NCBI GenBank assembly: GCA_002238505.1
Contig: MPMM01000022.1
Coordinates: 1-58,865 of the forward strand
DNA from: SAR202 cluster bacterium bin22
Lineage (GTDB): Bacteria; Chloroflexota; Dehalococcoidia; Lucifugimonadales; UBA3495
Direction of reading: 5' to 3'
DNA length: 58,865 bases
Below are positions 9,852 to 56,439 of this stretch, in pieces. Position 1 is the first letter of the stretch. Each line of letters begins with the position of its first letter. Below the pieces are notes generated by a model. That model did no database searches. It was not told the DNA's origin and saw only the letters and a program-made list of their open reading frames with translations. The translations under genes were made by a program, and so were the position numbers.

Positions 9852-11432
9852 TCACCGCCGCCGGACCCCGCGGGACCGCCCTCGATGGGGCGAACGCCCC
9901 TCCGACCAGCGGAATTCATCGACAACGCTCACGGCAATCTTCCGAAAGAGCGCCGCCGGATCGGAGACAAACCGCTCGGCATAATGCGCCGAATAGCGGC
10001 GGGAGGCCGCCTCCAGCACGGCCTCAGTCCACTGGCACAGCAGCAGGTCTTCGTAAACCGCCCGCCACGGCGGAAGATTGCGCTCGACCACCTCGGAAGC
10101 CAGGCGCTGATACCAGGCTGGGACAGCCGGAAGCTGAGGACCGTCGCGGACAAAACCCGACGAAACGGACCCAGCGCCAACGGCGGGGGAAGCGGTAAGC
10201 AACGGGTCCAGCGGCGCCGGCGGCGCCGGCAAAGAGAGCAGAGGCTCATCCGGTCGGGTAAAACCGCCAACAACGCCGGACTGCTCCGGACCGGCCGGGG
10301 TCTCAGAATTGAGCAAAACCGCCGGGGTCTCTAAATTGAGACCCCCCAGCCCTAGTCCGGGGAAACCAAGACTTGAATCACCCGGTACCGGGTGATTGAT
10401 TGATTTGTATTTATATATATTTATATATATATCAATCAAATCACCCCGGTAATCATGATCATAGAGCAAAAACGCAGGGGGGGTCTCAATTCTGATAACC
10501 CGCCCCGGGGTCTCTAAACTGAGACCCCCTCCGGCCACGGCCAGACAACCCCCGTCAGGAACGTCAACAACCTCCTCCGCTACCGCTTGGTACAGATTCA
10601 ACTCAGGTTGGAGCAAACCGGGCCTGCCGGCGCCGACGAAGCGACCATCCGGAGGGCCGCCAGCCCCGCCGTCCTGCGGCCCGGAGCCATGCCCCCGGGC
10701 AGGGGGCGGGGTCTCAGTTTTGATAAGACCCCCCGGGGTCTCTAAATTGAGACCCCGGTCGGGAGTGTCCTCGACCGGGGTCTCTTCATCAAAAGGGGTT
10801 TCGCTCGGCGCATCCGCGCCGGGCGGCGGAGCAGGCCCGGAGCCCGGCTCCGGGCCCGGGGCACAGACTGGCGACGATGGTGGGGAACCGTCCGCCACGC
10901 CAGGAACCAGACGGTGATGCTCCAGGACCCGACGGGCCGGCTCCGAGAGGGTGGAATGTCCCTGCTCCACCAGCAGACGGCAGACGGCAACGCCGGAGAA
11001 TACGAGCATGTTGCCCGAGTAGCCCCGGGGCGAATTCACCATATCCCTCCGGTTAAGCAGACCGGCCTGAACCAGTGCGCTCACGGCGCGAGCCACGTTC
11101 TGATAGCCCTTGACGTTGGCCACCGAGCCCAGCGCCTCCCGGGAGGGCGCCCCGGACCACCCGTAACGCAGAATCGCCATGGCAACACGCTGCGCGGCGG
11201 CAGAGACGGGCATCAGCGCCGTCAACATCATGCGGTCGCCCTCAGTGGCCGAATCACGGATGAGAACATGGTCGTCGGTGAGGAGATCGGAGGGGACGTC
11301 GTCGAAAAGGTTGGGCTCAGTGGAGTGGGCCAGGTCGGGATGAACCAGCTGAAATCCGGACTGCAAATCGGGCGATGAGTGTCCCGGTACCCTTGAGTCA
11401 ACCTCTGTATCGTGGTAATATTGACTAGTCAC
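9852..11432 (-). CDS. replication-initiator-like protein with the origin inside its gene
   Basis: A 526-residue protein read from GTG 11432, with TAGGAGAA upstream. Residues about 75-135 look like a winged helix (VAMAILRYGWSGAPSREALG, later VARAVSALVQAGLLNRRDM). The C-terminus, about residues 445-510, is a second helical domain (PAWYQRLASEVVERNLPPW and onward). The middle 300 residues are low-complexity, with repeated xLxLETPG...ETP units encoded by DNA repeats at 10297-10794, plus an AT-rich core. Initiators that carry their iterons inside the gene are known (lambda O, for example). It is the only long minus-strand gene outside the ends of the window. The assignment to replication is inferred from architecture, not family match. 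Confidence 0.55.
   Translation of the reverse strand: MTSQYYHDTEVDSRVPGHSSPDLQSGFQLVHPDLAHSTEPNLFDDVPSDLLTDDHVLIRDSATEGDRMMLTALMPVSAAAQRVAMAILRYGWSGAPSREALGSVANVKGYQNVARAVSALVQAGLLNRRDMVNSPRGYSGNMLVFSGVAVCRLLVEQGHSTLSEPARRVLEHHRLVPGVADGSPPSSPVCAPGPEPGSGPAPPPGADAPSETPFDEETPVEDTPDRGLNLETPGGLIKTETPPPARGHGSGPQDGGAGGPPDGRFVGAGRPGLLQPELNLYQAVAEEVVDVPDGGCLAVAGGGLSLETPGRVIRIETPPAFLLYDHDYRGDLIDIYINIYKYKSINHPVPGDSSLGFPGLGLGGLNLETPAVLLNSETPAGPEQSGVVGGFTRPDEPLLSLPAPPAPLDPLLTASPAVGAGSVSSGFVRDGPQLPAVPAWYQRLASEVVERNLPPWRAVYEDLLLCQWTEAVLEAASRRYSAHYAERFVSDPAALFRKIAVSVVDEFRWSEGRSPHRGRSRGVRRR
10297..10345. repeat. iteron pair 1
   Basis: A half-site GGGGTCTCAGAATTGAG at 10297-10313 is followed 27 bases on by the palindrome GGGGTCTC-N6-GAGACCCC at 10324-10345. 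Confidence 0.75.
10393..10443. repeat. AT-rich core flanked by inverted GGTGATTGATT-like arms
   Basis: GGTGATTGATTGAT enters and ATCAATCAAATCACC leaves a central run of alternating T and A (TATATATATTTATATATATA-like). This is the most A/T-rich stretch of the window and is palindromic overall. It is a good candidate DNA unwinding element. It encodes an Ile/Tyr/Lys run in the initiator. Confidence 0.7.
10480..10528. repeat. iteron pair 2
   Basis: A half-site GGGGTCTCAATTCTGAT at 10480-10496 is followed 27 bases on by GGGGTCTC-N6-GAGACCCC at 10507-10528, which differs from pair 1 only in the spacer. Confidence 0.75.
10708..10756. repeat. iteron pair 3
   Basis: A half-site GGGGTCTCAGTTTTGAT at 10708-10724 is followed 27 bases on by GGGGTCTC-N6-GAGACCCC at 10735-10756. 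An extra GGGGTCTCTTCATCAAAA lies at 10777. Confidence 0.75.
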
Positions 11433-11796
11433 GTAGCTTCTCCTACGTTGACACCCGCCACCGGATTAGGGTTGATTTCCGTTGGCGCCTCGGCTGCCGC
11501 CGGCCTGACACCACCTGATGATACCGGGTGGTGTTTGTGCGTTTGAGGCACAGCGGTTGCCCCAAGAATACACCCGGCAACGGTGAATATCAACCGTACG
11601 TTCCAATCCCCGAAAAATAGTCCGTTTACACCCCCCACCAACGTCCACAAACCTGACACCCAGGCTCCGCCCAGACCCGGCGCGGGACGCCAATTCGGCA
11701 ATCCCGAAAAAGAAGCCGCCCGCCGGGCATTGCCCGGTATAATAGCCCGGACGAATGTACCATACCCAGCGAGCCGAGACGGGCAGGGAGGACGGA
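11433..11796. promoter_or_regulatory. divergent intergenic region with hairpin and promoter-like sites
   Basis: This 364-base gap separates the minus-strand initiator from the plus-strand gene at 11797. ACACCACC (11508-11515) pairs with GGTGGTGT (11527-11534) around an 11-base loop, 76 bases upstream of the initiator start; T-rich bases follow on the plus strand. It could be an operator, a leader hairpin or a weak terminator. A TATAAT lies at 11738. No convincing gene was found here. Confidence 0.45.
11738..11743 (+). promoter_or_regulatory. -10 element TATAAT upstream of the 11797 gene
   Basis: GGTATAATAGCCCGG lies 54 bases before the ATG at 11797. No good -35 hexamer is 17 bases upstream, so it may be an extended -10 or activator-dependent promoter. 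Similar sites precede the genes at 21028 and 49087. Confidence 0.4.
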
Positions 11797-13770
11797 ATGG
11801 CAACGTCAGACCAGGAAGAATACCGGCCAAGCCGCACGGCCAGCGATGACAGCCAGGCGGCTGAGCCGGCCGCAAGGGACAAGGCGGACTTCGAAGACGA
11901 GAAGGAGGAGTTCGAGGACGACGACCAGCCCCAATGGGCCGCCAGAGCCACCGGGTACCGTATGGAAGGCCACATCAAGGACCGGCTGGACGAGCTGCTC
12001 GACGGGCTGCAGGCCAGCGAACACCCGGGGGCCAGCCTGGGATACCGGGCGCTGGCCGGAGAGGAGAACCTGGCCGATCACAGCCCCGAGGAACGACTCG
12101 AAGCGGTCCAGGCCATCTACGAGGCGGTGGCGGCTGACTTCATGCGCCCGGCCCAGGACTACCACGAAATGGGAACGGCGGTGGCCTACCAGCTCATCAC
12201 GCCCATCTACAACGGCATGCCGGAGACCGGACACAGCCGTGAACACCTGCTCCTGGACTTCCGCATAACCGAAGGCCACGCCGACCAGCAAAGCTGGTTC
12301 ATCCCCACCAAGGATACGGCCGAGTCCATCGCCGAGACCGTCAACGAGGCCCTGGACTACGCCGAAAAGCGGGTATACGAAGACCCGGAGGAGGACCTCG
12401 CCCGGCTGGAACGCAAGGCCCAGGTCTACGGGGGCCTGGAATCCTTCCTCGCCGGAGAGGAAATCGGATACAACCAGGCCAGGCCGGCAGAAATCAGGGC
12501 CGAGGCCGCCATCGCCGCCTACAACGACCCGAGAATAGTCATCGAGGCCAACCCCGACGACTACGTCGGCAACAACAACGGGATCAACTGGAACCAGGCC
12601 TTCACCAGCGAGATGGGATACCGGCCCGAGTCCGCCAGCTTCCGCACGCCCGAGGAGGAGAAGGCCGCGGCCATAGCCGGCCAGCTCCTGTCCGACAACC
12701 AGGAGCAGGTCAACTTCGAATGGGCCAAGCTGCAAGCCAGGGCCGGAGTCCTTCCGGAGGACCAGGACGAGGGTGGACTACTCCACGCCTGGGCCGAGGG
12801 ACTCAGCGACGACCAGAAGGTCGGCGAGGACCAGAGGCTCCACGCCCACAGCGAGGCCTGGGCCGCCAAGCGCGGCCTGGAAGCCGCCAACTACATGATC
12901 ACACTGGCCCTGAGACGGGGAGACCCCATGGTCCTGGACCAGACGCGGGAACTGGCGGACAATCTGAACGAATCGCTGGCTGAACTGCTGCAGTACAACG
13001 GAACGAATACCCTCCACGACACCCACTTCACAACCGCCATCAGCATGACCGAAACCGGCCTGGACCAGACAGAAAAGTTCGAAGGAGCAGTGGAGGAACG
13101 GATCTTCCACACGCTGCAGGCCGGATCGGGCTACGAGCACCTGGAGGACGAAGGGCCCAGGAACCAGATGATTCGCTACGCGGCCTACCAGCTGGCCGGA
13201 GACGACCTGCAGATGGCCGCACAGCACACCTCGGACCAGGCAATGAACTTCAACGGCCACGTCGCAAACCACGCCCTCCTGGGCTTCTACAACAGCGAAC
13301 TGAGCCCCTGGTCCAGCGACATACCGGACAAACTAGCCGCCGGCCTGACCAGCGGCGACCGGGAAACCGCAGGAGCCGCCTACGAACCCATGGCAACGCT
13401 CCACAAGGACCTCCTGGACTTCGACGCGACGCTGGACGACGAGGAACTCAGCGCCCAGGACGAACGGGTAAGGCTGGCCTACGTGGCCATGGGCGACGCC
13501 CTCCAAAACAACCCGGAAGCCGCGGCAATATTCCTGCAAAAAGCGCTGGGGCGCTGCGAAGACGCCGACCCGGAGGGTGAAAACCTGCTGGTGAACTACG
13601 CAAGAAAGACCCTGGCCGGAAGCTGCCAGGAGCCCCTGGACCTGGCCAACAACCCAAACCACGGCATGCGAGACAGCGAGATCACCTCGCTGAGGGATAA
13701 TGCCGCGCGGGACTACGCCTACGCGCTGGGAATCCTGGAACTCAAAGGAAACATGACACCCCCTCCCTAG
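11797..13770 (+). CDS. large acidic helical protein of unknown function
   Basis: A protein of about 657 residues; ATG 11797 follows GGGAGGACGGA. It is rich in Glu, Asp and Ala, lacks membrane spans and appears almost wholly helical. Residues 1-60 are very acidic (FEDEKEEFEDDDQPQW). The segment near residues 380-410 (LALRRGDPMVLDQTRELADN) resembles one in the protein at 18344 (LGLSQGNESLVTEGKDLMDR), so the two are probably distant paralogues. Its stop is the TAG of the CTAG target of the IS701-type insertion, so the insertion leaves the protein intact. Confidence 0.6.
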   Translation: MATSDQEEYRPSRTASDDSQAAEPAARDKADFEDEKEEFEDDDQPQWAARATGYRMEGHIKDRLDELLDGLQASEHPGASLGYRALAGEENLADHSPEERLEAVQAIYEAVAADFMRPAQDYHEMGTAVAYQLITPIYNGMPETGHSREHLLLDFRITEGHADQQSWFIPTKDTAESIAETVNEALDYAEKRVYEDPEEDLARLERKAQVYGGLESFLAGEEIGYNQARPAEIRAEAAIAAYNDPRIVIEANPDDYVGNNNGINWNQAFTSEMGYRPESASFRTPEEEKAAAIAGQLLSDNQEQVNFEWAKLQARAGVLPEDQDEGGLLHAWAEGLSDDQKVGEDQRLHAHSEAWAAKRGLEAANYMITLALRRGDPMVLDQTRELADNLNESLAELLQYNGTNTLHDTHFTTAISMTETGLDQTEKFEGAVEERIFHTLQAGSGYEHLEDEGPRNQMIRYAAYQLAGDDLQMAAQHTSDQAMNFNGHVANHALLGFYNSELSPWSSDIPDKLAAGLTSGDRETAGAAYEPMATLHKDLLDFDATLDDEELSAQDERVRLAYVAMGDALQNNPEAAAIFLQKALGRCEDADPEGENLLVNYARKTLAGSCQEPLDLANNPNHGMRDSEITSLRDNAARDYAYALGILELKGNMTPPP

Positions 13771-16945: not shown

Positions 16946-17163
16946 CCAGCCCGAACAAGCCCCACCGGCATATCTCCAGGAAAACCTCCTACGGCAGGTA
17001 CCAGGACTGCGTGGCGCCCGAGAACTGTAACCCAAAGGCCCACCACGGCGAGACCAAGACCAGCGTCTGCCGGTGCGGCGCCACCCGAATAATGAACAGC
17101 AAGGGGAGCCACTTCGAGCGGACCGGCTGGATTGAGACCATGGCGGCCGGAGGCCACGAATGA
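16942..17163 (+). CDS. small Cys/His-containing protein
   Basis: A 73-residue protein from ATG 16942, overlapping its neighbours by ATGA on both sides. Cys and His residues (DCVAPENCNPKAHH, then SVCRCGATR) could form one zinc site. It is basic and may bind nucleic acid. Its position directly before, and overlapping, the C5 methyltransferase gene suggests joint expression with it. Confidence 0.5.
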   Translation: MTSPNKPHRHISRKTSYGRYQDCVAPENCNPKAHHGETKTSVCRCGATRIMNSKGSHFERTGWIETMAAGGHE

Positions 17164-18278
17164 CGATGACGATGCAACCTCCGGTGGACCGCGGCAAACT
17201 GCCGCTCCGGGTACCCCCGCCGGCCCGGATCACCGGGCTCCGGAGAAACCCGGCCAACCCCAAGCCGGCGGGCAAATACCGCTTTCTGGACATCTTTGCC
17301 GGAATCGGCGGCTTCCGCTTCGGCCTGGAGCCCGCCGGCGGCGCCTGCGTCTGGAGCTGCGAGATCAACCGGTACGCCCGCAGGACCTACTCGGTCAACC
17401 ACGCCGTTGCCGAGGAGGACATCTTCGTCGACGTGAGGGAGGCAGACGCCGGAGACGTGCCGGACCACGAGATGCTCATCGCCGGGTTTCCCTGCCAGCC
17501 CTTCTCCCGGGCCGGAGTCAGCCGGAACCGGTCCCTGAACCGGCCCCACGGGTTCATGGACCTGACGAGGGGAACCCTCTTCTTCGAAATCGCCCGGGTC
17601 CTGGACAGCCACCGGCCCGAGGCCTTCCTGCTGGAGAACGTGCCGGGGCTGCTCACCCACGACCAGGGCCACAGCTTCGAGGTGATCCTCAAGGTACTTG
17701 CCAAGGAGCTGGGCTACCACGTCAGCCACCGGGTCATCGACGCCCTGCACTACGTCCCCCAGCGAAGGCGCCGCCTCTTCATCGCCGGACAGCTGCGCCG
17801 CGACTGCCCGGACCTGAACCGGCTGGACCTGCCGCCCGCCGAGAGCACGCTGGCCGAGATCCTGCACCCGCAGGACGGCACCGAGCAGGCCGAACCGCCC
17901 TACACCAGCGGCCCAGCCGCCCAGGTCAGCGCCAAGTACACGCTGGGCGACGGCACCTGGAACGCGCTGCTGCGCCACCGGGAGAAGCACGCCAACCGGG
18001 GCAACGGCTTCGGTTTCACCATCGCGGATCCGGGGCAGCCCTCGCGGACCCTGACCGCCCGCTACGGAAAGGACGGCCAGGAGGTCCTGATCGCCACCCC
18101 CGACTACGAAAAGCCCAGGCGGCTGACGCCGCGGGAATGCTCAAGGCTGATGGGCATGCCCAGGCTCCAGATCCCCGTCTCCGACCGGCAGGCTTACCAC
18201 CAGCTCGGCAACTCAGTTGTCCCAGCGCTGGTGGAGGACCTGGCCGACTACCTGATGGGACAGCGCCACGCGCTATGA
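17160..18278 (+). CDS. DNA (cytosine-5) methyltransferase
   Basis: A 372-residue enzyme that would transfer a methyl group from AdoMet to C5 of cytosine in a specific DNA site. Motif I FLDIFAGIGGFRFGLE (about 42-57), motif IV GFPCQPFSRAG with catalytic Cys about 112, motif VI ENVPG (about 159-163), motif VIII PQRRRRLF (about 200-207) and motif X QLGNSVVPALVEDLADYL are all present in order. The target-recognition region lies about residues 215-310. No cognate endonuclease is adjacent, so it is probably an orphan methylase that guards the element against restriction. The ATG overlaps the preceding gene. Confidence 0.95.
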   Translation: MTMTMQPPVDRGKLPLRVPPPARITGLRRNPANPKPAGKYRFLDIFAGIGGFRFGLEPAGGACVWSCEINRYARRTYSVNHAVAEEDIFVDVREADAGDVPDHEMLIAGFPCQPFSRAGVSRNRSLNRPHGFMDLTRGTLFFEIARVLDSHRPEAFLLENVPGLLTHDQGHSFEVILKVLAKELGYHVSHRVIDALHYVPQRRRRLFIAGQLRRDCPDLNRLDLPPAESTLAEILHPQDGTEQAEPPYTSGPAAQVSAKYTLGDGTWNALLRHREKHANRGNGFGFTIADPGQPSRTLTARYGKDGQEVLIATPDYEKPRRLTPRECSRLMGMPRLQIPVSDRQAYHQLGNSVVPALVEDLADYLMGQRHAL

Positions 18279-35202: not shown

Positions 35203-36776
35203 AGAAAATTGCGAAACTCTGAAAAGCAGAGAGACTGACAGTTGCCCGTTGAATATCAACCCCGACAACAGGTACAAATAAACCATGCAGAACTGCCAGG
35301 TCAGAGCCATGAAGGCCCAGGGCCGCGTCAACAGCCCAGCAGCGCTCCGCCGGCTGGAGCAGGTGCTGAACCAGCTCAGGGAACTCCACGACGCCTGCCT
35401 CTACCAGTGGCGCCTCGCCGAGAATAACCACGAGCCCAAATGGTTTGACGCCAACCGGCAGCAGAAGGAGCTTACCCTAATGCGGGCCCACAGCCCGGAG
35501 CACGACAACGTCCTGCGGAGACTCCAGGACAACGTGATACGCCACACGGCGGCCAGATGGAACAAGTACCTTAAGGACGAGAACACCGGCAGACCCCGCT
35601 ACAAGACCGGCAGGTTCCGCACCATCGCCCTGGACTCGCCGCAAGGAAGGGTAATAAGGTTTACCGCAACAGGCAAGCCAGTGCTGCACATAAACTCCTT
35701 GCCAGCCATCAGGCTGCTGACCAGCCAGCAAATCCCCTCTGACCGGCAACCCAGGGCCGTGAGAATTACCCTGAAGGGCAGGATGATCCACGTAAGGCTT
35801 TCGTACCAGTTTGAATTGCCGGAAAGGCTGGAACCCACCCTGGCCACCAGCCCCGTAGGCGTCGACCTGGGCATCGCCCTGTCAATGGCCACCTCCACCG
35901 GACAGACATTCCGGTCCCCGAAACAAGCTTACCTGCAGACACAGGAGCGAAAGGCCCGCCGGAAGCTGAGCAAGGTTATAGCAGCCGCAATGGCCACCGG
36001 CACAGCCGGGTTCAGGGCAGCCCTGGACGCTGACGGCAGACAGAGACTCACCAAAAAGGGCCGTCCCATGCGGCAACTAGTGTGGAGTTCAGGCAAACCC
36101 ACCAAGTCCTACCTGAAGGCCAGGAGACGGCTTTCTGCCATTACGGAAAGACTGGCCCTCCTGAGACGCGAGTTCCGACACCGGGTTACAACCAGTCTGA
36201 TTGAGAAGGCAGCAGCTGAAGGCAGGGACCTGCTGGCAATGGAAAACCTGCAGGTCAAGAACATGACCGCCTCGGCCCGGGGAACGGTGGAAAAACCCGG
36301 CCGAAACGTCCGGGCCAAGTCCGGGCTGAACCGCGCCATCCTACAGGAAGCGTGGGGCGAGACCCTTACCATGCTGGAATACAAGGCTGAAAGAGCCGGC
36401 ATCGCCAGCGTCAGGGTCTACGCCCAAGCTACATCCATTACCTGCAGCTGCTGCGGCCACAGGGACCCGAAATCCCGAACCTCCCAGAGCAGATTCAAAT
36501 GCACCGCCTGCGACTACCAGGCCAACGCCGACTTTAACGCGTCCCTGAATATCGCAGACCGGGGAATGCTCTACTTCCAGAAACGAAAGGGACTGAGCAT
36601 CGAAGACCTGAGACAGGCCAGGAGAGATGAAAGTCACTCCGGCGGAACAGAAGGCCCGGAAACGGGACCCGCTGGGCACCCTGCCTCACAGACCAGCCAA
36701 GAAAGCCCGATAAACGCGAGCGCCTCTGTACTGACCAGGCGTGACCCGGCCCAGGCAGAGAGTTTCGCAATTTTCT
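35203..36776 (+). mobile_element. TnpB element 1 with inverted terminal repeats
   Basis: AGAAAATTGCGAAACTCT (35203-35220) and its exact reverse complement AGAGTTTCGCAATTTTCT (36759-36776) bracket the TnpB gene. ACTGACAG lies 31 bases from the left end. The TnpB stop codon starts at the last base of the right repeat. No transposase gene is present. The exact cut points are not known. Confidence 0.7.
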
Positions 36777-36778
36777 GA
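35285..36778 (+). CDS. tnpB: TnpB RNA-guided nuclease (copy 1)
   Basis: A 497-residue protein. The RuvC-fold active site is complete: VGVDLGIALS (Asp194), LLAMENLQVKNM (Glu320) and ANADFNASLNIADRG (Asp416). A zinc finger lies between them (CSCCGH at about 387 and KCTACD at about 406). TnpB is guided by an RNA that overlaps the 3' end of its own gene and cuts matching DNA. Between the first motif and the helix that follows there is an extra loop of about 35 residues (DADGRQRLTKKGRP). It is about 80% identical by eye to copy 2 at 41560. The guide would come from bases just after 36776. Confidence 0.9.
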   Translation: MQNCQVRAMKAQGRVNSPAALRRLEQVLNQLRELHDACLYQWRLAENNHEPKWFDANRQQKELTLMRAHSPEHDNVLRRLQDNVIRHTAARWNKYLKDENTGRPRYKTGRFRTIALDSPQGRVIRFTATGKPVLHINSLPAIRLLTSQQIPSDRQPRAVRITLKGRMIHVRLSYQFELPERLEPTLATSPVGVDLGIALSMATSTGQTFRSPKQAYLQTQERKARRKLSKVIAAAMATGTAGFRAALDADGRQRLTKKGRPMRQLVWSSGKPTKSYLKARRRLSAITERLALLRREFRHRVTTSLIEKAAAEGRDLLAMENLQVKNMTASARGTVEKPGRNVRAKSGLNRAILQEAWGETLTMLEYKAERAGIASVRVYAQATSITCSCCGHRDPKSRTSQSRFKCTACDYQANADFNASLNIADRGMLYFQKRKGLSIEDLRQARRDESHSGGTEGPETGPAGHPASQTSQESPINASASVLTRRDPAQAESFAIF

Positions 36779-41499: not shown

Positions 41500-43051
41500 A
41501 AAGCAGAGACTGACAGTTACCCGTTGAACATCCACCCTAACGTCAGGTAAAAATAAACCATGCAGAACTGCCAGGTCAGAACCATCAAGGCCCAGGGCCG
41601 CGTCAACAGCCGAGCGGCACTCAGCCGGCTGGAACAAGTGCTGGACCAGCTCAGGGAGCTCCACGACGCGTGCCTCTACCAGCACCGACTAGCCGAGAAA
41701 AACCACGAGCCCAAGAGGTTTGACGTCAATCGCCAGCAAAAGGAGCTTACCCTGCTGCAGGCCGACAGCCCGGAACAAAACAACCTCCTGCGGAGACTCC
41801 AGGGCAACGTGATACGCCACACAGCCGCCAGATGGAACAAGTACCTGAAGGAAAGCGCCACCGGCAGGCCCCGCTACAAGACCAGCAGGTTCAGGACCAT
41901 CGCCCTGGACTCGCCCCAAGGAAAGGTCATGAGGTTTACCGCCTCCGGCAAGCCGGTCCTGCACATCAGCTCCCTGCCAGCCATCAGGCTGCTGACCAGC
42001 CAGGAAATCCTCGATGACCGGCAGCCCAGGGCCGTGAGAATCACCCTGAAGGGCGGAAGAATCCAGGTCAGGCTTTCGTACCAGTTTGAGGTGCGAGAAA
42101 GGCAAGACCCCACCCTGGCAACCAGCCCCATAGGCGTGGACCTGGGCATCGCCCTGTCAGTGGCCACCTCCACAGGCCAGACATTCCAGTCCCCAAAACA
42201 GCTATACCTGCAAGCGCAGGAGCGAAAGTACCGGCGAAAGCTGAACAGGATCGTAGCATCCGCTATGGCCACCGGCACAGCCGGGTTCAGGGCCGTCCTG
42301 GACGCTGACGGAAGCCAAATGCTAACCAGGAAAGGTCGTCCCATGCGGGAACTGGTGTGGACCTCAGGAAAGCCAGCGAAGGCGTACCTGAAGGCCAGAA
42401 GAAGGCTGTCGGAAATTACGGAAAGGCTGGCGCTGCTGAGACGCGAGTTCCGACACCGGGTTACCACCAGTCTCATTGAGAAAGCAGCAGCTGAGGGCAG
42501 GGACCTGCTGGCAATGGAAGACCTGCAGGTCAGGAACATGACCGCCTCAGCCCGGGGGACGGTGGAAAAACCCGGGCGCAACGTCCGGGCCAAGTCCGGC
42601 CTGAACCGCGCCATCCTCCACGAAGCCTGGGGCGAAACCCTTACCATGCTGGAATACAAGGCTGAGAGAGCTGGTATCCCCAGCGTCAGGGTCAACGCCC
42701 AGGCCACATCCATCACCTGCAGCTGCTGCGGCCACAAGGACCCGAAATCCCGAAACTCGCAGAGCAGCTTCAAATGCACCGCCTGCCATTACCAGGCCAA
42801 CGCCGACTCCAACGCGTCGCTGAATATCGCAGACCGGGGAATGCTCTACTTCCAGAAACGGAAGGGACTGAGCATCGAGAGCCTGAGACAGGCCAGGAGA
42901 GACGCAGGTCTCTCCGGCGGGACAGAAGGCCCGGACACGGGACCCGCTGGGCAGCCTGCCTCACAGAACAACCTAGAAAGCCCGACAAACGCAAGCAAAT
43001 CTGCCCTGACCGGGCCTGATCGGGGCAAAACAGAGAGTCTCGCAATTTTCT
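41480..43051 (+). mobile_element. TnpB element 2 with inverted terminal repeats
   Basis: AGACAATTGCGAAACTCT (41480-41497) faces AGAGTCTCGCAATTTTCT (43034-43051), an imperfect inverted pair (two mismatches). ACTGACAG lies 29 bases from the left end. It lies between AAGGAG on its left and an ATG on its right (43053), so it probably separated a start codon from its ribosome binding site. Confidence 0.7.
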
Positions 43052-43053
43052 GA
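41560..43053 (+). CDS. tnpB: TnpB RNA-guided nuclease (copy 2)
   Basis: A 497-residue close relative of copy 1, same length. The catalytic residues are IGVDLGIALSVATS, LLAMEDLQVRNM and ANADSNASLNIADRG. The zinc finger is CSCCGHKDP...KCTACHYQ. The frame is intact. The same extra loop occurs after the first RuvC motif. The stop codon lies at the right terminal repeat and overlaps the ATG of the next gene (TGATG), so that gene may now rely on translation of TnpB. It is likely active in reRNA-guided cleavage, by family knowledge. Confidence 0.9.
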   Translation: MQNCQVRTIKAQGRVNSRAALSRLEQVLDQLRELHDACLYQHRLAEKNHEPKRFDVNRQQKELTLLQADSPEQNNLLRRLQGNVIRHTAARWNKYLKESATGRPRYKTSRFRTIALDSPQGKVMRFTASGKPVLHISSLPAIRLLTSQEILDDRQPRAVRITLKGGRIQVRLSYQFEVRERQDPTLATSPIGVDLGIALSVATSTGQTFQSPKQLYLQAQERKYRRKLNRIVASAMATGTAGFRAVLDADGSQMLTRKGRPMRELVWTSGKPAKAYLKARRRLSEITERLALLRREFRHRVTTSLIEKAAAEGRDLLAMEDLQVRNMTASARGTVEKPGRNVRAKSGLNRAILHEAWGETLTMLEYKAERAGIPSVRVNAQATSITCSCCGHKDPKSRNSQSSFKCTACHYQANADSNASLNIADRGMLYFQKRKGLSIESLRQARRDAGLSGGTEGPDTGPAGQPASQNNLESPTNASKSALTGPDRGKTESLAIF

Positions 43054-46663: not shown

Positions 46664-48010
46664 GGGGAATTACATAGAAGACGATCCAGATTCACTGACA
46701 GCAGACCATTGACCAACCCGGGAAGCACGAAGGAACATACCTGTATGACCAGACCAGACGAACAGCTCCAGACCTTCCAGCTACGCGGCTACTGCTCAAA
46801 AGCAGGATACCAGCGGCTGCACAAAGTCCTGAATATGAGCCGTACCCTCTACAACGCCGCCCTGCAGGAACGCCGAGACGCCTACCGTCACAGCAAGACG
46901 CAGATCCCCTACACCCACCAGCAGAACCAGATGACCCTGATCAAGCAGGATCTGCCCGAATACCGGGAAATCGACAACCGCGTCTGGAGAGCCGCCCTAC
47001 GGAGACTGGACAAGTCCTTCAACGCCTTCTTCCGAAGAATCAAAAGGGGAGAAACCCCCGGCTACCCCAGGTTCAAGGGGAGAAGCCGCTACAAGACCAT
47101 CGAGATGGTGGCCGCCCACCCGAGCATGCTTAAAACCGCCCCAGACGGCCGCAGGGCATGGCTAAGAGTCAAGGGCCCCCGCTATCCAGCTCAGGCCAGG
47201 CAGAGCCCTGCCCGACAGCAGCCTGCTGAAGAACTTCAGGATTACCATGCGCCCCACTGGCCTCACGGTGGACCTGCTCTACGAAAGGGCAGCGGCAGAA
47301 AACCCGCCTACCGTCCGCCCACCAGCAGGTCCGGCCGTCGGCATAGACCTGGGCGTGAACCACCGACTCACCCTCTCCGACGGCACAATCGTCCAGCCAA
47401 GAGAAATAGACCGGACCAGGGAGGAAAACCTGCGCAGAAGAATCTCCACCGCCAGGAAGGGCAGCAACCGCCGCCACAAAAGGGTCAAAGGCCTGGCAAA
47501 GGAGTGCCGACGCAACCAGGTCAGAAACCGCAATCAGTGCCACCGCATCACCAGCAAACTGGTCAGGGAATACTCCCTGATAGCCATCGAGAACCTCAAG
47601 CTCCGCAATTTGACCGCCTCCGCCAACGGAACAGTCGAGGAGCCCGGCTCCAACGTAAAACAAAAGGCCGGCCTCAACCGTTCTATCCTGGAACAGTCCC
47701 TGGGACTGATAACACAGCAGCTGCGCTACAAGGCAGAATGGGCCGGTGTACAGCTGATAGCCGTCAACCCGGCGAACACCTCAAGGACCTGCTCCACGTG
47801 TGGAGCAATCAACGGAGAGAAACTGGCCGAATACCGGGTATTCAGATGCCCGGGCTGCGGGCTCGAAACGGACCGGGACCTGAACGCAGCTATCAACATA
47901 CTGAACAAGGGCCTTAAGGCCCAGCAGGGCGGGAATCCCCCTGCCGCCCCACCCGGGGCGATGACAACAGGAGGACTGGTCCCTCAGGGATCGTCTTGTA
48001 TGTAATTCCC
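46664..48010 (+). mobile_element. TnpB element 3
   Basis: GGGAATTACATA (46665-46676) and TATGTAATTCCC (47999-48010) are inverted. ACTGACAG lies 30 bases from the left end, as in elements 1, 2 and the partial one at the window end. The element sits inside a small zinc-finger gene: ATG-GGG-AAT-TAC on the left and TAC-ACC-TGC-GAC on the right. Confidence 0.6.
46745..48005 (+). CDS. tnpB: TnpB RNA-guided nuclease (copy 3), frameshifted
   Basis: About 419 residues after repair. The N-terminal half (QTFQLRGYCSKAGYQRLHKV) is in one frame up to about 47175. The rest is in another, joined by LPAIQLRPGR-like sequence upstream of ATG 47247. The frame breaks at a GGGCCCCC run (about 47174-47181). The active site is complete: VGIDLGVNHRLTLS, LIAIENLKLRNLT and ETDRDLNAAINIL, with CSTCGAI...CPGCGLE as zinc finger. 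It is a different TnpB branch from copies 1 and 2. One indel in the run could be an error or inactivation. Confidence 0.82.
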
Positions 48011-49086: not shown

Positions 49087-49878
49087 ATGCTCAACACGGT
49101 AATCCACGGCGACTGCCTGGAGGTCATGGCCACGATGGAGACCGCCTCCGTGGGCATAGTCGTAACCTCGCCTCCCTACAACCTGAGAAACAGCAGCGGC
49201 TCCGGAACCCACAACCCGGGCAGATCGGCCAAATGGACCAACTCCGCCTACCTGCAACAACAGGGCTACGACGGCGACGACGACAACCGGCCGGAGGAGG
49301 AATACCAGGACTGGCTGACCGCCGTGATGCAACAGATCATGCGGGTCCTTGCCGAGGACGGCGCCGCCTTCGTCGTGTTCAAGGAACGGGTCCAAAACGG
49401 GCTGATCCAGGACCGCCGCCAGGTTTGGGACCGCTTCCCCCTGCGGCAGACCATAATCTGGAACCGCCCCAAGGGGATCAACTTCAACGGCGGCTACTTC
49501 GTGCCGTCCCACGAGCAGATCCTGCTCTTCGCCAAGCCCGCCTTCCGGCTGTCGCCCGGGGCCAACGGCCTGGGCACCGTCTGGACCATAGCGCCAGCCA
49601 GGAACAACCCCCATCCGGCCCCCTTTCCCGAGGCGCTGGCCAGAAGGTGCGTAAAAAGCAGTCCGGACAACGGGCCCGTCCTTGACCCCTTCCTGGGGAG
49701 CGGTACGACCGCGCTGGCCGCCGAGGAGCTGGGCAGGAGCTGGATCGGGATCGAGCAGTCGGCCCGCTACTGCCGCATGGCGGAGGAAAAGCTGGAAGAG
49801 CAGCGGCAGCGCCGGGAAGCCAGCCCGGAGGGCCGGCCGCCGGCCAGCCCCCCACAGGACGAACAGGAAACCCAATGA
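49087..49878 (+). CDS. DNA N4-cytosine/N6-adenine methyltransferase
   Basis: A 263-residue enzyme. Motif IV (TSPPYNLR, about 27-34) comes first and the AdoMet-binding region (VLDPFLGSGTTALAAEELGR, then SWIGIE) last, as in beta-class methyltransferases. TSPPY is often, but not only, seen in N4-cytosine enzymes. Between them are the expected helices and a target-recognition segment. The Pro/Glu-rich tail is disordered. No partner nuclease is adjacent, so it is likely an orphan methylase. Confidence 0.9.
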   Translation: MLNTVIHGDCLEVMATMETASVGIVVTSPPYNLRNSSGSGTHNPGRSAKWTNSAYLQQQGYDGDDDNRPEEEYQDWLTAVMQQIMRVLAEDGAAFVVFKERVQNGLIQDRRQVWDRFPLRQTIIWNRPKGINFNGGYFVPSHEQILLFAKPAFRLSPGANGLGTVWTIAPARNNPHPAPFPEALARRCVKSSPDNGPVLDPFLGSGTTALAAEELGRSWIGIEQSARYCRMAEEKLEEQRQRREASPEGRPPASPPQDEQETQ

Positions 49879-51231: not shown

Positions 51232-51542
51232 ACGCCATGGCTTTGCACCAAAACTGAGCCTCAGGCGCCTCAAGGAGCCTGACCGCCCATCAGCAGTGCA
51301 CTGCACAGCCCCAGCCGGATGAAGGGACTTGAAACAAATCTGGCTACGCCCCCGGAGGGGCAAAGAATAACGACCTGCCGGTGCTTCGCCAGCCGACAGC
51401 TCTCCAACCAAAGGGCGACATCCGCCCCAAGGTGAAGAATCCCCTCCGGGGCATGGGCGAGGCGACGGGCCGGAATCCGGACAGTCACCCCGGTTCCAGC
51501 CCATACAACCAGGGTTTGCAACCCAAAACCGGAGTAACCACC
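51232..51542 (+). ncRNA. candidate omega-RNA of the IscB element
   Basis: A 311-base noncoding stretch directly upstream of iscB, where omega-RNAs (HEARO RNAs) lie. Local stems are visible: GCCCC-CGGA-GGGGC at 51348-51361, AGCCGGAT/ATCTGGCT near 51313-51345, and GGGCG-ACATC-CGCCC near 51412. The 5' guide would be the bases left of the scaffold. Exact ends are not defined. Confidence 0.7.
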
Positions 51543-52955
51543 TTGGCAAGACACATCTCACCACATAACCAGACCTCCGTACCAGTCCTGGACAAGGACG
51601 GAATACCCGTAGCGCCGACCAGGCCCTCACGGGCCAGAAGACTACTGGACCAGGGACGAGCGGCAAAGACCTGGAAACACGGCCGGTTCGCTATCCGGTT
51701 GAGCGACATCAGCAAGGCCGACTGCTCGGTACCCGACGTAACGCTGGGCATAGACCCCGGCGCACGCACCACCGGCATGGCCGTCACGGTGACAACCCCC
51801 GACGGGGAAAAGATTGTCCACGGCTGCCAGGTCAGGCACCGGGGACACCGCATCAGCCAGGCAATGCTCAGCCGGAGATCCTACCGCAGGAACCGGCGCA
51901 GCCGGATAAGAAGACGTCCCGCCAGATTTAACAACCGGACCAGAAGGCAGGGCTGGCTCCCGCCGTCGCTGGAATCCATCAGAGCCAACATCCGGACCAA
52001 CGTCAGTCACCTGACGGAGCTGTTTCCGGTCTCCGTCATAAATGTCGAGACCTGCCGGTTCGACCCCCGGCTCATCGCCGATCCTGACGTTTACGGCGAC
52101 GGATACCAGACCTCCGAGAGAGCAAATATGCAGGTCCGTGAGTACGTCCTACAGAGGGACCGCAGAACCTGCCAGTATTGCGGCAAAACCGGCGTCCGGC
52201 TGGAGGCAGACCACATCGTGCCCCGCAGCAGGGGTGGAGCCTACCGGATAGCCAACCTGATAGCAGCCTGCCACGACTGCAACCAGGCCAAGAGCAACTT
52301 GCCGGTGGAACACTTTCTGAAGGACAGACCAGAGACCCTGAGGAAGCTCAGACAGCAGATGAGATCTTCGCTGCAGTCAGCGGCCCACATGAACGCCCTC
52401 GTACCCTTCGTAATAACGGACGTCGAGAGTCTGGGCATACCCGTCAGGGAAACCGACGCAGTCAACACGGCATTTACCCGCACACAGCTGGGCATTGAGA
52501 AATCTCACGTCAACGACGCGGCCTGCCTGGGGGAACCCCCAGCGCTGCTGAACGTGCCAACGTCGATCACTGTCATATCCGCCACCGGGCACGGAAAGAG
52601 ACAAATGCTCACGCAAATGAGCAAGCACGGCACGCCTCGGTTCCAAACGGGAGCCGCCGGAAAGTACCACGGATACCGGGCCTGGAGCCGATTGCCAAGG
52701 CAACGGCAGGGCTTCACCACCATGCCCGGGCACAAGCTCCGACAACGGAGAAGTCACGGCATCGCCAGCGGAGACCTGATAGCCTACCGGCACCCAACGG
52801 ACGGAAAGGTAACCGGCTACGCCGTGCTAGCTAACCGAAAAACCCGGGCGAGAGCGTCGGGCATGAAATCGGTCAGAGTGACCGAGACCAGGCTGATTGC
52901 CCGAAACAACGGGTACCAGTACCAGAAGCAAACCAACTCAAACCAGGAGAATTGA
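51543..52955 (+). CDS. iscB: IscB RNA-guided nuclease
   Basis: A 470-residue protein from TTG 51543 (the frame is open further upstream, but that part is the RNA). Domains in order: PLMP-like head SVPVLDKDGIPVAPTRPSRA; RuvC-I LGIDPGARTTGMAV (Asp71); Arg-rich bridge helix RRSYRRNRRSRIRRRPARFN; RuvC-II VINVETCRF (Glu169); HNH CQYCGKTGVRLEADHIVPRS with a second CHDC pair; RuvC-III KSHVNDAACLGE (His322, Asp325). All catalytic residues are present. IscB is the ancestor of Cas9 and cuts DNA using the omega-RNA guide. The gene appears intact. Confidence 0.95.
   Translation: MARHISPHNQTSVPVLDKDGIPVAPTRPSRARRLLDQGRAAKTWKHGRFAIRLSDISKADCSVPDVTLGIDPGARTTGMAVTVTTPDGEKIVHGCQVRHRGHRISQAMLSRRSYRRNRRSRIRRRPARFNNRTRRQGWLPPSLESIRANIRTNVSHLTELFPVSVINVETCRFDPRLIADPDVYGDGYQTSERANMQVREYVLQRDRRTCQYCGKTGVRLEADHIVPRSRGGAYRIANLIAACHDCNQAKSNLPVEHFLKDRPETLRKLRQQMRSSLQSAAHMNALVPFVITDVESLGIPVRETDAVNTAFTRTQLGIEKSHVNDAACLGEPPALLNVPTSITVISATGHGKRQMLTQMSKHGTPRFQTGAAGKYHGYRAWSRLPRQRQGFTTMPGHKLRQRRSHGIASGDLIAYRHPTDGKVTGYAVLANRKTRARASGMKSVRVTETRLIARNNGYQYQKQTNSNQEN

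Positions 52956-54144: not shown

Positions 54145-56439
<2,295 letters not shown>

Follow-up and report, generated by a model that had tools for sequence, protein, structure and literature searches.

We favor, with moderate confidence, the reading that a gene for an orphan winged-helix protein holds an iteron origin of replication within its own coding sequence and encodes the initiator acting there, on an element of ~74 kb or more. The window, that is the whole stretch of DNA analysed here, is an entire contig (C56; 58,865 b) in a 4.39-Mb genome that was assembled into 58 fragmentary contigs. We infer the initiator and origin roles from the layout of the gene, its repeats and an A/T-rich core, which are as follows:

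9852-11432, minus strand: gene for a 526-aa winged-helix protein, candidate replication initiator, with a GTG start (codon-position GC, homologous fragment in sister species G002, gap in the gene array)
11440-11444, minus strand: Shine-Dalgarno-like AGGAG, 7 nt before the GTG start (sequence reading)
10908-11342, minus strand: predicted N-terminal winged-helix domain, residues 31-175 (AF2, VIA-align, hhalign)
9855-10172, minus strand: predicted C-terminal helical domain, residues 421-526 (AF2, single sequence)
10297-10318, plus strand: unit 1, degenerate palindrome (GGGGTCTC half-site)
10324-10345, no strand: unit 1, perfect palindrome GGGGTCTC-TAAATT-GAGACCCC
10376-10397, no strand: 22-bp perfect palindrome AATCACCCGGTACCGGGTGATT at the edge of the A/T core
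10392-10441, no strand: A/T core, an imperfect inverted repeat and candidate unwinding element (7 G/C of 50)
10440-10453, no strand: partial copy of the 22-bp palindrome, ATCACCCCGGTAAT, on the opposite side of the A/T core
10480-10501, plus strand: unit 2, degenerate palindrome with 2 mismatches
10507-10528, no strand: unit 2, perfect palindrome GGGGTCTC-TAAACT-GAGACCCC
10708-10729, plus strand: unit 3, degenerate palindrome
10735-10756, no strand: unit 3, perfect palindrome GGGGTCTC-TAAATT-GAGACCCC
10777-10784, plus strand: lone half-site GGGGTCTC

An initial annotation had described three repeat pairs of one layout, each a GGGGTCTC half-site followed 27 bp to the right by a perfect palindrome, and their coordinates were recovered exactly: half-sites at 10297, 10480 and 10708 each lie exactly 27 bp left of one of three perfect GGGGTCTC-N6-GAGACCCC palindromes (10324-10345, 10507-10528 and 10735-10756). 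The lone fourth half-site of that annotation was likewise found at 10777-10784, and the whole 58,865-b contig has no plus-strand GGGGTCTC beyond these seven copies. The half-sites are themselves degenerate palindromes (the one at 10480-10501 differs from the full palindrome at two positions), and each repeat unit is a weak palindrome plus a perfect one, with centres 27 bp apart. All of the repeats fall, as had been claimed, inside the coding frame of a long minus-strand gene, in the linker of 9852-11432. Where repeated LETPG units had been read from the palindromes, we found LETPA, LETPG and LETPG; the half-sites encode xxETP, and the units encode similar 18-aa repeats. A further long palindrome, GGCCCGGAGCCCGGCTCCGGGCC, lies in the same linker at 10834-10856, near the lone half-site.

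The palindromes are constrained as DNA. When synonymous codons were shuffled within the gene, none of 5000 runs produced all three perfect palindromes (mean 0.042, maximum 2), and simple base composition predicts ~0.004 perfect copies per genome; these two estimates rule out a chance origin. All three cores share the codons GGT CTC AAT/AGT TTA GAG ACC CCG, and the gene uses TTA in no other place. The 22-bp cores are near-identical, in contrast to the diverged codons that separate the halves of each unit. Only four perfect palindromes are present in the 4.39-Mb genome. The fourth, GGGGTCTCAAAATTGAGACCCC, is intergenic on another contig (C34, 4408-4429) and is one letter away from units 1 and 3 (21/22 the same); because this copy is non-coding, the palindrome is a DNA site beyond any protein repeat. 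The proposal that one stretch of DNA serves both as protein code and as sites is thus supported by the constraint at DNA level and by the C34 copy. On the minus strand of C34, a terminator-like hairpin and then a short ORF follow this copy, and a second N6 palindrome, CCTTGAG-N6-CTCAAGG, is found near it, 24 bp apart from centre to centre.

The minus-strand gene is real. Its GC content by codon position is.71/.46/.79 in the N-terminal domain and.74/.55/.74 in the C-terminal domain, which argues for a gene on this strand, since shadow ORFs instead peak at position 1. The AGGAG ahead of the GTG start is further evidence for the gene. The length of the ORF is no evidence, because plus-strand genes here avoid T at third positions and long antisense ORFs are common. 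The gene, one of very few on the minus strand of a plus-coded contig, sits in one of only four gaps of more than 900 b in the plus-strand gene array (the other three are the contig's left end, 4.3-5.4 kb and a transposase). It carries the resident strand bias and has therefore long been established on the contig. A homologous fragment (29% identical, E 6e-7) is present in the sister species G002; this N-terminal domain fragment lies at a contig end (C94:4995-5285) and is possibly a decayed copy. From its start, the gene consists of the putative binding domain, sites from codon 217, the A/T core at about codon 331, the last site at codon 377 and the C-terminal domain from codon 421, with low-complexity linker between the domains.

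Predictions of structure point to a winged helix at the N-terminus, as the initial annotation had proposed: residues 31-175 gave a winged-helix AF2 model of low confidence (2-sequence alignment, pLDDT 53), with helices at 48-60, 68-75 and 80-92 of the modelled fragment, and its VIA-align matches were mostly varied winged-helix proteins, with best Z scores of 7-8.4 over 62-96 residues, a range that may also reflect a common arrangement. The weak Foldseek match to 4pt7 ('Structure of initiator') had an E-value of 2.3 against this low-confidence model. The C-terminal 106 residues, modelled by AF2 from a single sequence (pLDDT 57), are predicted to form five helices, and a search of this fold against the PDB gave no useful match. 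By sequence, the protein had no match in Pfam (up to E 1, with neither RepA_N, PF06970, nor Rep_3 detected), PHROGs, NCBIfam or PDB sequences, and PF04492 (Phage_rep_O) gave no match at the gene up to E 10. Rolling-circle replication was considered, and Pfam revealed no rolling-circle Rep domain in the protein. An hhalign comparison with a profile built from eight lambda-O N-domains returned a probability of 62% and a score of 31.7 (column shuffles, 8-15); with a lambda-O HMM, the protein ranked 13th of 11,796 ORFs, with another ORF beating it by hhalign and decoy ORFs scoring similarly. We read this resemblance as a shared general fold, not above the generic level and not proven kinship.

The protein is close to an orphan. 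Among 147 relatives, the G002 fragment was the sole homologue; an alignment-based search of 50 genomes of the family found none beyond it, and the N-terminal domain searched against 294 genomes of the class retrieved, besides itself, only matches with E above 0.002. Neither protein searches of genome and viral contig collections nor tblastn against plasmids and phages yielded a further homologue. The exact pair pattern was absent from viral contigs and, among 395 genomes, occurred only in its own. A relaxed pair was found in 20 stretches of genome contigs from unrelated taxa, one pair each; these were taken as unrelated, with no relative of the protein there. The neighbouring gene (11755-13770) also had no relatives in our searches, and an Rfam search returned nothing.

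The A/T run of about 50 bases that had been noted between the first two pairs is present at 10392-10441, with 7 G/C in 50. It is the most A/T-rich 50 bp in ~310 kb of suspected element DNA; elsewhere, no 50-mer has fewer than 15 G/C in the window or fewer than 14 in the other contigs suspected of belonging to the element. One edge of the core is formed by the 22-bp palindrome AATCACCCGGTACCGGGTGATT, which the initial annotation did not list, and the other by its partial copy, which makes the core an imperfect inverted repeat. This gapped inverted repeat scored 21.5 (shuffles: mean 9.8, maximum 18.5), and as single-stranded DNA the core folds better than 200 of 200 shuffles (z -4.4). In synonymous shuffles of the gene, the lowest G/C count per 50 bases averaged 11.5 and went down to 5. 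The A/T richness comes largely from the encoded amino acids (IYINIYKYK) and hence cannot be claimed as synonymous constraint.

Initiator genes that contain an origin have been described in lambdoid phages and in RepA_N plasmids of Firmicutes, and the candidate described here is of this known kind; what is new is its initiator, its doublet geometry and its setting. In the O gene of lambda, as in Stx phages, a DNA-binding domain is followed by hyphenated palindromic sites in mid-gene, an A/T tract and a C-terminal domain (PMC7466680). We took lambda from the public record as a control: its four annotated iterons span codons 117-139 of 299, with the A/T tract at about codon 145. The winged-helix gene similarly has repeated palindromic sites between its binding and C-terminal domains and an A/T-rich tract beside them, a likeness of composition only. 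The differences from lambda O are that the sites form three doublets across 460 bp, that units 1 and 2 enclose the A/T core, at whose edge a 22-bp palindrome lies, that no P-type gene follows downstream, that PF04492 does not match and that the gene is carried by a large, GC-rich, plasmid-like element. In RepA_N plasmids, a winged-helix N-terminal domain of Rep binds Rep boxes located centrally in rep, and the origin-encoded linker is dispensable (PMC5703833). The window gene resembles those of RepA_N theta plasmids (pSK41, pSK1) in having a predicted winged-helix N-terminal domain, central sites that encode a linker and a separate C-terminal domain; the sites occupy codons 217-377 of 526 in a low-complexity linker, the central placement typical of RepA_N. 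It differs in that PF06970 is undetected, its long palindromes form 27-bp doublets, its host is high in GC and its element is strongly strand-biased. Repeated (here candidate) initiator sites and an A/T-rich region also recall Rep_3 iteron plasmids; however, no Rep_3 match was obtained, and the sites are palindromes, not plain direct repeats. One such plasmid, pSK639, has its repeats upstream of rep (PMC5703833). On layout, then, the window gene may work like lambda O or RepA_N, while by sequence it belongs to neither. Such a layout on a large GC-rich element, with no detectable sequence kinship, would suggest that this arrangement has emerged repeatedly. The lambda-O-like origin of the initial annotation therefore stands as to the order of its parts, which is that of lambda O and RepA_N, but not as to family, since no family model, PF04492 included, matched the protein.

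The proposed origin could operate as follows. The winged-helix domain, probably as a dimer, would bind the palindromic sites in the DNA for the low-complexity linker of the same protein. The A/T core, which units 1 and 2 bracket, could bend and melt when the sites are loaded, and the C-terminal helical domain may recruit host replication proteins. The linker itself would be protein sequence written by origin DNA. We count against this reading the absence of an initiator family match, of a skew switch at 10.4 kb and of any DnaA box in the window, and the finding of only one, fragmentary, homologue. Furthermore, the element is in fragments, so another origin may lie elsewhere.

The strongest rival holds that the palindromes are operators, at which a MarR-like winged-helix regulator and not an initiator represses promoters in and around its own gene and the C34 gene; a winged-helix protein bound to palindromes within the gene that encodes it might just as well act as an autoregulator. 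The predicted fold is indeed closest to general winged-helix proteins, and the C34 copy is intergenic and upstream of an ORF, although a terminator-like hairpin separates the two. Within unit 3, antisense to the winged-helix gene, there is a promoter-like TTGATA-17-TAAATT on the plus strand (10720-10748), with the palindrome spacer as its second hexamer. Units 1 and 2 have weaker promoter-like versions in the same place, but these retain only 8/12 promoter letters (hand count). Since three even double sites deep in a gene, an extreme A/T core and flanking palindromes are more than operators need, we regard this explanation as unlikely. A partition centromere, with a TubR-like centromere-binding winged-helix protein and an outlying site on C34, would also account for clustered palindromes beside such a protein, and TubR is among the weak fold matches. 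Yet no ParA-type match was detected in the window or C34, nor a TubZ-type one among the window proteins scanned; a likely partition operon (ParA and a small partner) is located on C23 and lacks such sites, and the A/T core would be left unexplained, all of which makes a centromere quite improbable.

The remaining alternatives concern the origin of the repeats themselves. Small palindromic mobile elements, inserted in frame and functionless like the palindromic elements of Rickettsia, would be palindromic and multi-copy with one copy outside a gene, as observed, but the 4.39-Mb genome has no more than four perfect copies, three of them within 430 bp and with fixed internal spacing. The gene is also long resident by composition, and none of 394 other related genomes has the paired form; we therefore give this explanation very little credence. 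We give still less to the idea that the repeats are an LETP protein motif that arose by internal duplication, with the palindrome as a by-product of codons. The similar 18-aa repeats are in its favor, but synonymous shuffling fails to yield the palindromes, a near-identical 22-mer stands in non-coding DNA on C34, and the rest of each unit has diverged.

An origin at this place had been predicted to coincide with a skew switch, or minimum, near 10.4 kb, and this prediction failed: AT skew is +0.380 to the left and +0.355 to the right, with a slightly negative GC skew on either side. Sustained switches were also absent from C23, C28 and C34. Simple, steady bidirectional replication from 10.4 kb is thus a poor fit; the constant skew could reflect either a circle copied in one direction from this origin or some other dominant replication mode. 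If the site is an origin, the strand asymmetry with no switch here suggests that replication from it is probably unidirectional, on a circular element. If the usual deamination reasoning holds, the minus strand would more often be single-stranded, and forks would move towards lower coordinates, in the direction in which the candidate initiator is read and head-on to most of the other genes.

This asymmetry marks out a few contigs of the genome. Sampling up to 20 kb from every contig (four short contigs read N), we found an excess of A over T on one strand in C56 (+0.35), C23 (102.5 kb; +0.32) and C28 (91.7 kb; +0.28). Skew was -0.30 in C34 (15.0 kb), which is equivalent to the reverse orientation, and -0.22 in C29 (16.7 kb); it was weaker in C51, C54 and C24 and no more than 0.09 in size in the remaining readable contigs. 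At fourfold sites, plus-strand genes of the window have A.135 and T.033, and the minus-strand candidate initiator has A.064 and T.216, a reversal which indicates that the asymmetry follows the DNA strand, whichever strand is coding. The minus-strand transposase lacks the asymmetry and is probably a recent arrival. The strong A excess is steady over 58.9, 102.5 and 91.7 kb, is independent of gene direction where tested and is missing from most other contigs.

We suspect that the strand-asymmetric contigs represent one or more large extrachromosomal elements; nearly all genes of C56 and C34 are on one strand. Because they have the palindrome, GC content and bias in common, C56 and C34 were taken as one element of ~74 kb or more, and C23 and C28 may be further parts of it or sister elements. 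The ends that C23/C28 and C56 have in common are short repeats. In archaeal Borgs, nearly all genes of a replichore lie on one strand and initiation is inferred at the ends (PMC9605863), unlike the internal origin proposed here. A bolder version of the origin reading, which we consider doubtful, would make this protein the founder of a new initiator family that encodes its own origin in a new geometry, with double palindromes on both sides of an A/T core edged by a palindrome; this origin would drive strictly unidirectional replication of a large strand-asymmetric element of ~75 to 285 kb that is coded almost wholly on one strand and is Borg-like in organisation, except that its origin is internal. 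The 22-bp site and the protein, both defined, offer a handle on how such strand-asymmetric elements replicate, and the constant A/T asymmetry, independent of gene direction, makes unidirectional replication directly testable.

Besides many orphans, the window encodes RuvC, GyrB, TnpB and IscB proteins and two DNA methylases. DnaB was matched just once in the genome, on C16, and not on the element contigs. The GyrB gene lies at 54172-56439 on the plus strand, and no GyrA family match was detected among the window proteins scanned. C5-cytosine and N4/N6 DNA methylases are encoded at 17160-18278 and 49087-49878, with no obvious restriction partner. On C23, the ParA-like gene and its small likely partner (~61.5-62.5 kb) occupy the strand that carries fewer genes on this largely plus-coded contig. 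Three TnpB-type genes and one IscB-type RRXRR+HNH gene are found at 35285-36778, 41560-43053, 47247-48005 and 51381-52955, and two of the three TnpB-type genes are 87% identical in DNA.
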